The notes beneath the pieces are model-generated. The model was given only the letters and a program-made list of their open reading frames with translations. It ran no database searches and was not told the origin of the DNA. Made by a program: the position numbers and the translations under genes. Positions 35,099 to 42,384 of a stretch of 64,000 bases of DNA are shown one piece after another. Each line of letters begins with the position of its first letter. Positions within the stretch are counted from its first letter, which is position 1. Location: NCBI GenBank assembly GCA_015039465.1, contig MU130029.1:83994-147993 (forward strand). The letters run 5' to 3'. The DNA comes from Phlegmacium glaucopus (lineage: Eukaryota > Basidiomycota > Agaricomycetes > Agaricales > Cortinariaceae).

Positions 35099-38000
35099 TC
35101 AACATATACAATGAGCAATATTCAAGGCACAGAAGAAATATAACATACGAAGCTGGTTATTCCTGATAATATCCAACAATGGCAGTGCCAGTGAACCATC
35201 TAGTCTATCCTTGCCCTCAACCAACCCACAAATTGCCCTGGCAACAACATCTTTGATATCTGACTTGACGTAGGCGGCTAGCGCAGCTGCGAACGCTGGA
35301 CTAAATCCCTGTTTCTTCGTATATCCTTGAACGAATGATTGCTCTGCACAAATACATGTAACTGAGAAGGGTTAAATGCATAAGAGAGGCTATCCCAAAA
35401 AGAGCTTTCGCAGACCTGCAAGTAGCTCGGCCTGTAATAATATATTCTCATTCTGGGATGATTGTCCACCTCTGGCGATATTCTCCTATGATTATCATCG
35501 AGATTAATCAGAGCTATGGTTGATCTTTGAATAACGTACCAGATCCGGAAAATGCTCAGAGAAAGCTATCCAACAAGGCCGTACATTGTCCCGCTGCATG
35601 TAAAAACATTATAAGTCCATGTCATCGAATGGGAATATGGGAAATGATTGAGGAGGCTCACAAGCTGAAGTCCGGCAAGGTGGAGGCAGTTAGACAATAA
35701 GGGAAGACAGTGAAAATAGACACGCACAACCTGAAAAAAGAGGTGAGGAAAAGGCAAATAGATGTAAGCGAATCCACACTCACGCGCTGTACATATCGCG
35801 CACGAAAGCTCGTCAGCAAAGAAAAATGAATGTGATGCTGTCAATCGACACTCACGCGCTGTACAGTTCGCGTTCGGAACGATAACGTCGTCAGTAAATA
35901 GGAATGAACCTGATGTTGTAAACTGATACTCACCCACTGTGCATATGCACGGAACAGCGAGCTTATCAAAAAATAGAAACAATTGGGGTGCCCTGAATCA
36001 ATACTCACGCGCTGTGCAGATCGCAGATGGAACAGAGAGCCTGTCAACAGAAGAACAGATGTGATTGTAAATCGACTCACAACCTGTGCAAATCGCGCAT
36101 ATAAGCGCCAGCTCGTCAGCAAAAAAGAACTAAATGGTTGGTATAATGACAATGGATACTCACGTCCTGTAGAGATCGCGCATACAAGCCCCAGCTTGTC
36201 AGCGAAAGAGAAACAAAATTGATGATGTAAATTAATACTCACAGGCTGTGCAAGTCGTGTACGGAAGCATGAACTCGTCAGCAAATAAAGTGTGATGGCA
36301 TAAATCGATACTCACGTCCTGCGCAGATAGCGGCAGCTCAGAAAGTAACGAACGTCATGTTGTAAATTGATACTCACGCACTGCGCAGACTTGTCAACAA
36401 AAGAAAAACAAATATGACGGTATAATCGACACTCACATCCTGTGAGGATCGCACATAAAAGCGCAGCTCATCAGCAAAATGCGATGTTGTAAATTGACAC
36501 TCACATCCTGTGCAGATCCCCCCAGAAGCGCCAGCTCGTCAGAAAATAAACGAATGTGATGCTGTAAACTGACACTCACATCCTGTGCAGATCGCACACG
36601 GAACCGCGAGCTCGTCAGCAAATAGGGACAAATGTGATGCTGTAAATCAACACACATCCTGTACATCGCGCACAGCGAGCTCGTGGGTCAGTAAATAGAT
36701 ACAAGTGTAAATCGATACCCACATCCTGTACAGATCGCAGACAGAAACACCAGCTCGTCAGCAAATGGAAATGGATAAGATGTTGTAAATCGACACTCAC
36801 GCACTGTGAAGGTTGCGCACAGAACCGCAAGTTTGTCAACAAAAGAGAAACAATTGTGATGCTGTAAATAGATACTCACAATCTATGCAGATCGCGCACA
36901 GAATGATGGGCTTGTTAGCAAATCGAAGGGAATGTGATGCTGTAAATCGACACTCACATGCTGTTTAAATCACGCACAGAAGCGACAGCTCGTCAGCAAA
37001 TAGAAACGAATGAGATGTTGTAAATCAACACCCACGATCTGTCTAAATTGCGTATGGAACCACAAGGTCATCAACAAATAGAAACGAAAGTGATGGTGGA
37101 AATAGACGCTCACATTTTGCGAAGATCGCGCACAGAAGCGGCAGCTCGTCAGTAAACCGAAATTAATGTGATGCTGTATATCGACACTTACATCCTGTGC
37201 AGATCGCGTATAGAACGATGAGCTTGTCAGAAAATAGAAATAAATGTGATGATGTAAATCAGCACTCACATCCTGTACAAATCGAGCACAAAAGCGCCAG
37301 CTCGTTAAATGAACGTGATGCTGCAAATGAACACTCACATCCTCATAAAACTGCGAATGGAACCGCAAGCTCATCAAAAATAGACAGAGGTGTACATTGA
37401 CACTCACATCCTGTGCAGATGGCGCACAGAAGCAGCAATTTGTCAGAAAATAGAAACAGATGCGATGTTTGAAAATCGACACTAACCTGCGCAAATTGCA
37501 CACGGAACCGTAAGCTCATAGAAATAAATGTGATGTTGTAAATCAGCACTCACATCCTGTACAAATCGAGCACAAAAGCGCCAGCTCGTTAAATGAATGT
37601 GATGCTGCAAATAAACACTCACATCCTCATCAAACTGCGAATGGAACCGCAAGCTCATCAAAAATATACAGAGGTGTACATTGACACTCACATCCTGTGC
37701 AGATGGCGCACAGAAGCAGCAATTCGTCAGAAAATAGAAACAAATGCGATGTTTGCAAATCGACACTCACAACCGGCGCCTACTTCGCACGAAACCGTAA
37801 GCTCATCAACAAATGTGATCTTGTAAATCAACATTCAACACTCACATTCTGTACAAATCGAGCATAGAAACGGCAGCTCGTCAGCAAATAGAAATGAATG
37901 TGATGCTGTAAATAAACACTCACACTCTGTGCAGATCGCGTACGGATCAGTAAATAGAAATAACTATGTTGTAAATCAACACTCACGAACTGCGCAGAGC

Positions 38001-39816
38001 GAATACAGAAGCGCCAGCTCGTCAGCAAATAAAAGAATGTGATGTTGTAAATTAACACACAAGCTATGCAGATTGCCCATTGAACAGTAACATGATCAGA
38101 GGTCTAAGCCAAACGAGTAGTTGAACGGGTGATGCTCGCCTCAGCCTGCGGGCCTGAAATTATTGGCCTATCAGCTAGTAAAATTGAAATTTCGACGCAC
38201 ATCCTAGGTATTCATTTAAATTCTCGTTAGCGTGGTGATCTTCCCAGGAGTGTTGAAAAATTGTGTTACTTACATACTATTTCAAAAGTTAGTTTTACAT
38301 TTAAGTAGGACATGTGCATGAACAGTCCTGACCTCCTGGTATAACCGAACACTATAAGTACGTTGAATCAATAGATCCTGACACTTACAAACTTTAGAAC
38401 TCGAATCAGTGTCTATCTTAGTTTGCTTATACCAGCCGTAATAAGAAATTACTCACATCCTGCGTACATCCTTCGTCATCATTCAACGTAGAGATCCAAG
38501 AGTACAAAAACACATACCGCCGCCTACGTCTGTGCTCTCAGAACGTTTTAAATGAGTGAGGAATCAACCTAACACTCACCCAGGTATGCGGAAAGAACAC
38601 TAGAATTCTGTTCATATAATCTTCAGAATAAATTGGAACTGATTTTATTGTACGTTGCATTCACTCTAGATAATGTATTGTGAAATACCTTCCATTAGTG
38701 TCCTGGAAGGTGCGGCAAAATTAGTGTATGAGTAATTGAAGATAAGCAAGCACTTACCGTTGTACTGAATATCGAATACAAGTGTCGATATTGATTTGTT
38801 GAACAGAGACAAATAATAACTTCAAGGTGTCGCCGTCGAGAGCGTTCGCCGTCTCATCCATCAACTCTTTACAGTTACTGGCTTCCTGCCGCATATCTAC
38901 ATGTATAACAGCAAATACTAAGTTCAACAAGTTGTGTTAAGCTATACGCAGTAGGCTTACCGTCCAGGCGCACATAAGCCGTCGGTCGGGAGGCAGCTAC
39001 CTTCAGGGGCTCTACGAAGTCAGTACTTAGTATTTCTGCTGCCTTTTCGAGCTTCTTCTTTGTGGCTTCCTTTAGATTAAGAGTTTCCCGTAGCTTGCTG
39101 AATGCCTTGGTAACGAGACCATCAAATTTGGTGAAGATCGCGATGACAGGTACTTCAAAGTAGAGTGACAAGTGTCAATAATTGCTATAGTCCGACAATG
39201 GAAATAAAAGACCTTTCCCGTTGCCATATTCCTCAAAGAACTTCTTGTCTGCGTCGAGAAGTGGCCTGTTGGTGTCGGTAGGGAGACAGTACCTGTTTTT
39301 TTGGAAAAAAAAAAGGAATTAGTGTTACCACTCAGGCAGAAAATATCAGGAAACAAGCAATGCACCAAATTGCGTGGAGCTGGTTAGACAGATCCCCGCG
39401 TTTCGCTCTCTCAGAAATGAAAGACTTTACTGTCTGCATTTCGTCCAGAGAACCAGACTCAAATCCTCGAGAGTCGTGGAAAATGAATCGGCGGTTACTC
39501 TTGAATATGAGTTGGTTTTCGATATCATGCATTCCGCGCTATGTTACGCTAAGTAACGCTGAATTCGGTACCATTATTTTTTATACCTCAGATGATCCCT
39601 GTACGATGGAGAGATCGAGCTAAAATAATATTCCCGGTCAATTTCGTTGAGTTCGAGGGCCGACCTCACCTTTCCCCCTGACGGACTGTAGATCTCTGGA
39701 TCGTCGATGGAGTTGCACACTTTCTTGAGGAGGGTTGTCTTGCCGGCGTTTGCCTTGCCAATGATGAGAATGCGAAAGTGTCGGCACTTGCTTCGGAGCT
39801 TGATTGCTTCGTCCAT
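35099..39816 (-). CDS. GTPase-domain protein with an array of 3-nt exons
   Basis: The N-terminal exons encode a P-loop GTPase: LIIGKANAGKTTLLKK (G1), FHDSRGFE (G3) and AIFTKFD (G4). Helical exons follow: 38961 and upward (VRLD), 38758-38896, 38689-38702 and 38580-38599 (ending FFPHTW, phase 0). From 38523 to 35662 nearly all recognisable exons are three nucleotides, flanked by YAG and GTGAGT. Larger exons then resume in phase 0: 35540-35593 (RDNVRPCWIAF), 35416-35485 and 35099-35361 (SPAFAAALAAYVKSDIKDVV, LPLLDIIRNNQL, stop). These C-terminal exons are open across two introns and look like helical-repeat protein. The ATG at 39816 (MDEAIKLRSK) starts the GTPase domain. About 36 triplet exons would give an Asp-rich linker. 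The GTPase and C-terminal parts are well supported; splicing of the array is inferred. Confidence 0.7.
35660..38065 (-). repeat. Tandem array of about 34 intron-plus-codon units
   Basis: Degenerate units of 60-92 bp repeat head to tail. Read on the minus strand each is GTGAGT(G/A)TCGATTTACA..., then a CTGACGAG branch-like word, then ...CTGCACAG, then three variable bases before the next GTGAGT. The triplets include GAT (12 times), CGC, TGC, GAC, GTT, TGG, CCT, ATT, CAT, ATC, AAT, AGT, TTC and CTT. 31 junctions have AG, exactly 3 nt, then GT. Three are irregular: two lost acceptors and one AG directly followed by GT. A block of three units at 37263-37485 is repeated nearly identically at 37547-37769, showing recent growth. 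Confidence 0.85.
38154..38517 (-). other. Six non-repeat introns separated by triplet exons
   Basis: Upstream of the repeat array the same spacing appears between introns unlike the repeat unit. Triplet exons are at 38457-38459 (GAT), 38389-38391 (TTT), 38333-38335 (GAG), 38274-38276 (TAT) and 38201-38203 (GAT), after a 6-nt exon at 38518-38523. Introns are 58, 65, 53, 56, 70 and 47 nt. Donors are GTATGT, GTGAGT, GTAAGT, GTCAGG, GTAAGT and GTGCGT. Branch-like words such as ACTAAC and GCTAAC are in place and all acceptors end in AG. Confidence 0.7.
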
Positions 39817-40392: not shown

Positions 40393-42384
40393 ATGGACAC
40401 TTCCACACTGAAACCTACAATTCAAAATATATTGGAAGACTGTCCAAGGTGCGTTCACTCTCTTATACTTTGCACACGCTGACTGTTCGTCTTTTACTAG
40501 ATCCCGAGTATTGGTGGTCGGCAAGGTTAGTAGAAGGCTGTACCAGCTTAATTATGCGCTAAGGACCGCAATCAGTCGGGCGTTGGAAAGTCCTCACTCA
40601 TCCAGTACGCCTTCAACGTTGATATAGCAGTTACGTTTTCCCTCCAGTACAACAGCGCGCTACTAAAATTTCAATAGAGCGTGTCACACAAAGAGGCCGG
40701 TGTATGTGATATAAATGAAGAGATTATCTCCAAGCACAACTCGTATTTTGTGTTGCACGATTCGCAAGGGTTTGAACACAACGAAATCGACAACTTAGAA
40801 AAGGTAAAAAACTTCATTCAGTCGCGCAGCGGCGAAGCTATTCCACTCAAAGATAGAGTTCACGCCATTTGGTGAGTGTTTAATATCATTTAGTAACTTG
40901 TGAGAAACTTAAAAGAATGAATCTAGGCTTTGCATTCAAATTCCATTTGCCGGCGGCCGTGTATTTGAGACAGGCGACGAAAAATTTCTGGAATTCCTTA
41001 AACTTGAAACACAACGTGACAGCCAAATTTACTTGAACAACAAATCCTCCTAACATTGGATTCCGAAATAGTACCTATCGTCATTGTTTTCACTCAATTT
41101 GACGTCCTGGTCAGTCGGATGGAGGAAAACCTCTCCGAGGCGGAAATAGACCTGTCCGAGAAGGAAATGGACCAACTCTGCTTACAACGAGCTGATGCCG
41201 AGTTCAAGAGACTATGCCTGGAACCCCTCCGAAAACTTGCTCCTCGGCTGAAGTACGCAAAGATATCCGGTTTGTATTTTAGCCCATTTGTGAACTTGCC
41301 TTAAGTATCCAATGCAGTAAAACCGCCTTACCAACAAACGCTGGCGCATTTGATCAATCTCACTCAAGGCCTGGTAGCTCAATCCAGTGGCGATCTATGG
41401 ATTGTGTTTGCCACGGCTCAGAGAGTAAGCGCTCAATTAAAAATCAAATCATCCATTGAGTGAGTTTAATGTTGGATGGCTTCCCGACGACTAACCTATG
41501 TTTATGAATGATAGAGTGGGCATGAAACGTAAGCTTCTAGTGAGGTTGGATATGCCTGCCTTCGACTCACAGCAGGTTCTTGGCACATCTATTAGAATAT
41601 TGGCAGAGTCTTGCATCGAGTTCTAACCTTGTTGGTTGGTCGCTTAAGGACTGCCTTTCCACCCTACACGACGATATTACCTCAAGTTGGAATTTCTATG
41701 ATCCCGAAAACGTGCGTTTACACTACAATGAATATTGTATCTAGACTGATTTAAAGGCACGCACCTGCTCTAGTTGCTGTCCGGCGAAGACTTCCGGAAC
41801 AAAATCATGACACTCGTACAGCTGGTCACTGCAGACTCGGAGCAACTTCAGTCGTGGTTGTACGTAACCTAGTACTGAGCTTAAGGCTATTCTGATCAAT
41901 GCACGCCCTCCCAGTCAAAATCCGGAGAAGCTTCAAGCTCTTATTGGTATAGCAATTATTGTGGTCGCTGGAGCCGCTCCAGCCATCGCTATGATTGGAC
42001 TGTCGCTCGCATTTCTGAAATGGATTACAGGCGTTTACAAGAAGACGTGCGTATACAGGTAGCATTGCACACTCTGGTCTTATCTATTAATATTCTTCTC
42101 GCAGGCCTGAAACCCTACGGTGTCTTATGGGTTACATAGTTGGGGTCACTCTTATCATGGAGCGCCTTTTCCTAAACACCTTACACTTGACACGTCCCTT
42201 TTCTCTGACCCAGGATCACATCGATGCTGCGATTGAAGATTATAAGGACTCGGAAGCCATCAAAGTTCATCGAGCCATCCGCCAATACGCTAATAAAACG
42301 ACCTTTCTGGAGATTTTGAAGTCTAACATTGCAGAGAAGAAGGTGATAGAGCTTATTCAGGAGTATCAGCAAACCCCTGTATAG
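40393..42384 (+). CDS. Second GTPase-domain protein with membrane segment, divergent neighbour
   Basis: The gene starts MDTSTLKPTIQNILEDCPR and has about ten short introns. The P-loop is assembled across an intron from GK and SGVGKSSL; G3 is LHDSQGFE and G4 is VFTQFD. A helical region follows, with YWQSLASSSNLVGWSLKDC. A hydrophobic segment (IAIIVVAGAAPAIAMIGLSLAF) and a helical C-terminus end at TAG 42384. An intron at about 41017-41072 (GTGACA...AATAG) removes an apparent stop. The protein probably binds GTP at a membrane; its role is not known. It is a distant paralogue of the gene at 35099-39816 and shares a 576-bp divergent promoter region with it. Confidence 0.75.

Follow-up and report, generated by a model that had tools for sequence, protein, structure and literature searches.

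Predicted codon-by-codon splicing through arrays of short introns in GTPase genes of the mushroom Phlegmacium glaucopus

In the ectomycorrhizal mushroom Phlegmacium glaucopus (Cortinariaceae), a 64,000-nucleotide (nt) stretch of genomic DNA (C24:83994-147993, hereafter the window) carries a GTPase gene in which short GT-AG introns are separated by single codons. Judging from the DNA sequence, these codons are very probably spliced one by one to form a hypervariable linker that connects the GTPase domain with a conserved domain at the C-terminus. The genome searched for related arrays comprised 60.5 Mb in 259 contigs. Removal of the array introns would proceed one at a time through ordinary intron definition. 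Since a unit comprises an intron and one codon, units could be skipped, gained, lost, or exchanged without a frame shift. The near-identical introns would provide homology for recombination or array regrowth, both inside and between genes, and codon diversity would persist through selection for novelty in the linker.

The array in the window gene

A full splice model of the window gene gave an open frame of 454 amino acids (aa) on the minus strand, from the ATG at 39816 to the stop at 35101-35099, with 38 array exons between 8 upstream GTPase exons and 3 downstream exons (Table 1). This frame bears out the original prediction that the flanking exons are open, in phase 0, and keep the frame to a stop. 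Every array exon had also been described as one codon long; this was correct for 34 of the 38, whereas one exon measured 6 nt, one 9 nt, and two 12 nt. A weaker GAG acceptor within both 12-nt exons would yield two further 3-nt GAT exons. The range of 47-92 nt first given for all intervening sequences was too narrow, as two introns of the model measure 137 and 153 nt. A further interval of 143 nt, at 37553-37411, is either one intron or two joined at AG/GT with no exon between them. In four units a splice site was lost or moved; the reading frame nevertheless remained open.

Between 38650 and 35500 on the minus strand, 38 AG-N3-GT sites were counted. Two of these (38470 and 36753) are off-register, leaving the 36 in-register sites that had been noticed initially. 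Requiring (C/T)AG-N3-GT with a GTRNK donor gave 32 matches in this interval, compared with 0-2 matches at gaps of 0-2, 4-6, 8, and 9 nt. A gap of 7 nt gave 12 matches, which are the same units re-read 4 nt on. The main units are tandem copies, and the window contains a 284-bp duplication. The first five triplets lie between non-repeat introns in the splice model, as had been stated, and the codon that follows them is CTT (38063-38061), such that D-F-E-Y-D-L is spelled by six separate 3-nt exons.

The last upstream exon (38638-38580) has phase 0 at its 3' end and the terminal sequence YSEDYMNRILVFFPHTW. The protein starts with a GTPase domain, for which Pfam Arf scored barely over the cut-off and MMR_HSR1 barely under it. 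A public P. glaucopus protein of 255 aa, P0001 (BYT27DRAFT_7079477), matches residues 1-255 of the window gene at 100% and terminates at ...YSVQR, just ahead of the array.

Table 1. Exon groups and repeated introns of the window gene
Feature	Position in window	Strand	Remarks
Upstream GTPase-part exons, n = 8	38580..39816	-	splice-model frame; ATG at 39816
Array of 38 exons, 34 exactly 3 nt	35662..38523	-	predicted to encode AADFEYDLFSNAPVDFDEDDDFYEDDDIHICDDDDDCDPDVRWRRVL
First five single-codon exons	38201..38459	-	GAT TTT GAG TAT GAT = DFEYD; introns between them unlike the main repeat
Main repeated introns	35787..38060	-	consensus of 75 nt, GTGAGTGTCGATTTACAACATCACATTTGTTTCTATTTGCTGACGAGCTCGCGCTTCTGTGCGCGATCTGCACAG
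Downstream exons 35593-35540, 35485-35416, 35361-35099	35099..35593	-	C-terminal domain RDNVRPCWIAF...TCICAEQSF... and stop

Codon-by-codon assembly, the central proposal, is supported as a prediction by a reading frame that stays open across the two flanks and by the absence of stop codons described below. Further support comes from other mushrooms, where the GTPase and C-terminal parts form one protein. In Mycena P0077, P0069, and others, a single polypeptide unites the GTPase and C-terminal domains with the motif (Y/W/F)F(P/G)HVW. The C-terminal domain of the window gene matches P0077 of Mycena galericulata with an E value of 7e-8 (C82 at L022, 2e-4). No C-terminal match at E<0.5 was obtained after the array in 12 of 14 GTPase loci, and in several of these the fetched sequence ended short of that domain.

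The full window protein aligned end to end with P0011, with 220 of 451 positions identical. This alignment spans FFPHTW-AADFEYDL and resumes at DNV..C in the first exon past the array. The P0011 linker has 34 residues (FFPHVW-TNAEYDLDPRPPDRLHRPRRDPRPLRRDPLLCFL-DNVDTC), and the corresponding region of the window protein reads FFPHTW-AADFEYDLFSNAPV...RWRRVL-RDNVRPC. At the site of the first single-codon exons, P0011 reads FPHVW-TNAEYDLD and the C-terminus of P0002 reads FPHVW-ANFEYDVC, so that EYDL and FEYD, respectively, stand where the window exons spell DFEYDL. Both proteins come from other fungi, with intronless frames on JGI contigs of 1,006 (P0002) and 1,669 (P0011) bases. Since the gene family is intron-rich while these frames are intronless, P0002 and P0011 most likely represent transcripts. 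One might speculate that the V-C ending of P0002 fits an unspliced GTNTGY intron. A PDB search with P0011 gave no match, and a protein search with its C-terminal part alone returned only 5 proteins.

Annotated Mycena proteins also bear on the alternative that the array is one large intron in which a minisatellite has grown, with the GTPase exon joined directly to the C-terminal exon. P0077, P0069, and P0123 have only three residues between F(P/G)HV(W/Y) and the C-terminal domain, P0121 has six, and skipping the array would keep the frame because both flanking window exons are in phase 0. Such a single intron is nevertheless highly improbable in view of the 34-residue linker of P0011 and the FEYD of P0002 at this site, the 3-nt spacing kept across unrelated intron families, and the stop codon counts given below. 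The pre-array motif was present in 59 of the 141 homologs fetched, and 44 of these 59 terminate within 30 residues past it. Splicing codon by codon, if true, could explain why many public gene models from this large family of mushroom GTPases are cut off at a common position. The residue next to the motif is V in 20 homologs, a residue that read-through into a GT intron would frequently produce. At the same linker place, P0135 of Mycena olivaceomarginata has a long protein repeat of the EHAAIPAG/EHAAIPAT type; the site may therefore attract repeats in other genera.

Exon lengths and stop codons across loci

In total, 34 loci were put through a splice model in which exon lengths of 0-40 nt were equally allowed, weights were set by the author, and GT and AG were forced. 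Arrays were present by the model threshold at 27 of them, which is no frequency because most loci were chosen for matching the array pattern or an array-bearing relative. The remaining 7 loci gave no array by this threshold (L009-L011 with 3-4 triplets each, L031, L036, L038, and L039). L038 has an assembly gap at the array position, and L036 on C40 has two genome-pattern matches yet no array. The short arrays of 3-4 codons at L009, L010, and L011 (C171, C28, and C75, respectively) are akin to the window repeat, and the stretches holding them are about 86-92% alike, perhaps as a dispersed repeat.

Across the 27 loci, a length of 3 nt was assigned to 742 of the 803 array-internal exons on the sense strand, compared with 44 of 639 on the antisense strand. 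The remaining sense exons comprised 45 of frame-breaking length and 16 whose length was 0 nt or another multiple of 3. Nothing remains in the mRNA after zero-length recursive splicing. Zero-length exons of this kind (AG/GT) made up 3 of the 803 and do not characterize the arrays.

No stop codon was found among 781 triplets over the 27 loci, with 25 of the triplets supplied by the window. Shuffling each codon position within its locus gave an expectation of 53.7 stops (standard deviation 5.4, minimum 36 in 2000 shuffles). TAG and TAA were the two most depleted triplets (0 vs 24.5 and 0 vs 18.9 expected, respectively), with TGA at 0 vs 10.1. This depletion argues against one large intron across the array. 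GAG occurred 35 times and AAG 12 times, and a second AG is therefore not simply forbidden. TGT and GT-initial triplets were also depleted, matching avoidance of spurious donors. All 20 amino acids were encoded among the array triplets. For three arrays, the sequence fetched contained no GTPase match; these likewise had 0 stops in 41 triplets and therefore provided no neutral control. Five TGA triplets called in regular-expression chains (L014, L016, twice in L017, and L019) were rejected, being absent from the exact-3 path, which ignores stops. These calls arise because units such as CAG-TTA-GTGAGT also contain TAG-TGA-GT; TTAGTGA and GAAGTGA were found at L014, L017, and L019, and the same explanation probably holds for L016.

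A genome pattern of three GTGAGT donors at a spacing of 3 gave 374 matches, compared with 40 for the reversed pattern. With any spacing from 0 to 20, there were 591 matches vs 325 reversed. A spacing-4 control gave 27 matches (102 reversed), every one of which belongs to a single 76-bp repeat lying antisense to two GTPase genes (C203 and C249). This tandem repeat occupies gene-strand positions 3275-4750 of L032 (C203:153600-158400) and also C249:10029-11174. It begins after 25 T within an array intron and joins 73 nt of nearly constant sequence to a hypervariable triplet (TAG, TAA, AAC, TTT, and others). The triplet lacks flanking splice sites and includes stops in the sense of the gene.

Array introns and the codons between them

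The intron consensuses of 21 arrays formed 8 groups, namely F1 (53 nt), F2 (73 nt), B (64 nt), NACHT (71 nt), C7 (67 nt), C82 (56 nt), C60 (65 nt), and the window group (75 nt). None of the 28 pairs of groups exceeded the shuffled baseline by 3 standard deviations in similarity, and the only features common to these unrelated consensuses were the donor, the acceptor, a branch-like word, and the 3-nt gap. A non-coding satellite that inherits splice-like words by copying only would suit the tandem copies among the main window units, but the sharing of just these features by unrelated consensuses and the confinement of the 3-nt spacing to one strand make that reading extremely improbable. An identical consensus was found at 4 of 4 F1 loci, 3 of 6 F2 loci, and 4 of 6 B loci, a degree of copy identity that characterizes introners. 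The array introns resemble ordinary fungal introns in having GTRAGT donors and, for the most part, CAG at the 3' end.

Codons varied more than the introns around them. The difference between units was 0.38-0.79 at codon positions 1 and 2 and 0.10-0.48 for the mean intron column, with the codons higher in 20 of 20 arrays. Paralogous arrays were compared in seven cases; the aligned introns were.88-.99 identical on average and the paralogs 91-96% identical upstream, and the identical codons numbered 3/18, 4/16, 4/16, 5/27, 5/26, 1/20, and 4/10. C164 and C144, for example, are 96% identical over 1275 nt upstream and have the same intron consensus, and 5 of their 26 codons match when units are aligned by intron. 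The Asp-rich linker anticipated by the original prediction holds for the window gene but is untypical, as the linkers of sister GTPase genes are rich in Gly, Arg/Glu, or Gln and those of a third gene family in Phe (judged by eye). The first codons are partly kept between C82 copies (DYD/DYD/DYE).

Introns of L023 and L028 differ by a median of 1.4% while their codons differ. The unit with the most similar intron shared its codon about at chance (0.05 vs 0.10 in L023 and 0.15 vs 0.06 in L028). Adjacent identical triplets, counted as possible traces of the target site duplication expected beside introner copies, were close to expectation in these youngest arrays (2 vs 2.0 and 2 vs 1.5, respectively). 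Across the 19 arrays examined, such triplets were in excess in L012 (18 vs 6.2, p 0.000), with a weak excess in the window, L016, and L018 (p 0.036-0.043). Duplication of intron plus codon followed by slow drift was rejected as a full account, since units with near-identical introns in L023 and L028 do not clearly share codons. Candidate processes that would renew the codons are selection after duplication, exchange of units, insertion of mobile introns, and growth with random triplets.

Two further proposals concern how the arrays arose. In the first, which is compatible with splicing codon by codon, introner-like mobile introns would have invaded a pre-existing coding sequence at each boundary between codons, leaving its former codons as the triplets. 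This would fit the identical consensuses in F1, F2, and B and the L023 and L028 introns, with their low divergence and chance-level codon sharing. We regard this origin as rather unlikely. The few codons shared by C164 and C144 give no conserved older sequence, random insertion would not yield exactly 3 nt, introns in 16 of 19 arrays resemble their neighbors more closely than those farther away, and most typed F1 and F2 rows lie shortly downstream of GTPase places (see below). Alternatively, repeat growth could add an intron and three random bases at a time, with selection only purging stops and the codons being functionless. The 76-bp repeat of C203 and C249, with its variable triplet outside any splice sites and its TAG and TAA in the sense of the gene, would agree with such growth, as would a codon composition that differs from array to array by eye. 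Partial conservation of the first codons between the C82 paralogs and between species (FEYD, EYDL) indicates that not every position is free, and we consider functionless codons unlikely.

Several points weigh against codon-by-codon splicing into a hypervariable linker, or against its proposed workings. The splicing is a prediction from DNA, made with author-set weights and forced GT and AG, and 45 of the 803 array exons have frame-breaking lengths. The linkers of P0002 and P0011 could stem from ordinary exons, and the status of both as transcripts is our inference. Codon position 3 varies less than the other two (0.08-0.66), in L021 even less than the introns, and the choice of triplets within single arrays is narrow, with 5-23 distinct ones. 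Because unit alignment follows the introns and its register is uncertain where these are almost identical, codon strings were also aligned alone. They scored little above shuffles in 7 of 10 pairs, but were closer than shuffles in the other 3 (L040/L041, L022/L040, and L024/L028), where 0, 5, and 8 of 200 shuffles, respectively, reached the score. Identical codons accompany more similar introns in 4 of 19 arrays (L012, L016, L019, and L025); this signal, the likeness of neighboring introns, and the 284-bp duplication in the window also point to ordinary duplication of units. The triplet in C203 and C249, lying outside splice sites, suggests that the 3-nt variation may partly come from repeat growth. 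The signals on how codons may be renewed pull in different directions, and the recognition role proposed below is drawn by analogy only.

Host genes and known systems

Among the matches listed, 84 GTPase places were typed from exon-wise hits, along with 83 rows of array introns. At least 43 of the 84 GTPase places had same-strand array introns no more than 6 kb downstream, and 12 of the 83 rows had no such GTPase place upstream. For F1 and F2, 65 of the 70 listed rows that were typed were within 6 kb downstream of a same-strand GTPase place, and no scattering over unrelated genes was seen in these 70. In the five other rows (C128, C237, and C164), the arrays terminate much like family members by eye. 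Seven of eight GTPase paralogs fetched before an array was known there carry one (C201, C164, C34, C149, C144, C246, and C171), and the C9 paralog, whose GTPase adjoins a NACHT reading frame, has none; this set is not a random sample because it was drawn mainly from best hits. By eye, the pre-array exon ends in phase 0 in F(P/G)(H/Q) at 14 GTPase loci, but not at L022, L040, and L041.

The host of the window array is a GTPase gene without NACHT, and the C16 array lies directly downstream of a NACHT-type (NPHP3_N) reading frame. A copy of this NACHT gene on C6, 77% identical, has array-pattern matches directly downstream, on pattern evidence only. The third gene family (L014, L015, and L017-L020) has about 19-35 single-codon exons per copy; these six loci share another intron, and their products are rich in Phe, Trp, or Asp. 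The family B host piece gave no Pfam match over the cut-off. With NACHT (NLR-like) genes and a large family of GTPase genes among the hosts, the likely use of the linker, by analogy, is as a fast-changing segment for recognition or partner binding in proteins of non-self recognition. A broader and more tentative possibility is an intron-built diversity system of mushrooms, in which each residue of the binding linkers of GTPase and NACHT proteins has its own intron cassette. Homologous introns would permit single codons to be added, dropped, swapped, or skipped with the frame always kept, over generations and possibly among the transcripts of one gene.

Like microexon or bicycle-type genes, the arrays string together many tiny, symmetric exons that share a phase. 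Microexon-rich effectors, such as aphid KQY (PMC7495047), bicycle (PMC9168663), and schistosome micro-exon genes, likewise have many tiny internal exons and fast-changing proteins. The original prediction had named such parallels as having larger exons, which agrees with the 37 exons of 6-416 bp in aphid KQY1a (PMC7495047); more than 100 microexons are described within one aphid gene (PMC9168663). In contrast to these effectors, the mushroom exons are one codon each in series, their introns are near-identical and less variable than the exons, and their hosts are GTPase and NACHT genes, the window protein beginning with a GTPase domain. Introners (PMC9860276, PMC4457414) are likewise near-identical short introns in many genes, whereas the mushroom copies are stacked at 3-nt spacing in one place of one gene family.

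The WD, ANK, and TPR repeats of fungal NLRs are also conserved and homogenized within and between genes with few fast-changing positions, and concerted evolution with positive selection at few positions is described for them (PMC4986451). Those repeats are protein, whereas the repeat of the mushroom array is an intron, and one codon per unit would be kept in the mRNA. Isolated 3-nt or 1-nt exons (Arabidopsis APC11, PMC4674806; Drosophila hth, PMC7392893) show that such splicing is possible but are not arrays. Before the 1-nt exon report, the smallest known constitutive exon was 6 nt and the smallest known alternative exon 3 nt (PMC4674806). Recursive splicing (PMC6224609) likewise has adjacent AG and GT and possible stepwise removal; unlike its zero-length form, each mushroom unit would leave 3 nt, and the window has a single possible AG/GT unit. 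An array of single-codon exons was not found in searches of an open-license library aimed at tiny or tandem exons, judged by titles and abstract openings, with most subscription papers outside it.

Should transcripts bear out the prediction, the arrays would line up many in-frame exons of the smallest possible size, with the introns as the constant part of the gene and the exons as the variable part. Splicing of this kind would test how small serial exons can be under intron definition and would offer a route to in-frame protein diversity at single-codon resolution.

Some further features were observed around the arrays. At L023, L024, L026, L028, and L034, the terminal triplet ATT is followed by GCATGT (only GCA within the fetched stretch at L028), which would fit a GC-AG intron extending the array past the counted exons. 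Next to several array genes (L010, L012, L014, L017, and L019) lies a dispersed repeat measuring about 520-590 bp. Adjoining the window gene on the opposite strand, a divergent GTPase-like piece with stops lies at 40669-40878 (+) (C24:124662-124871; E 1.6e-9).

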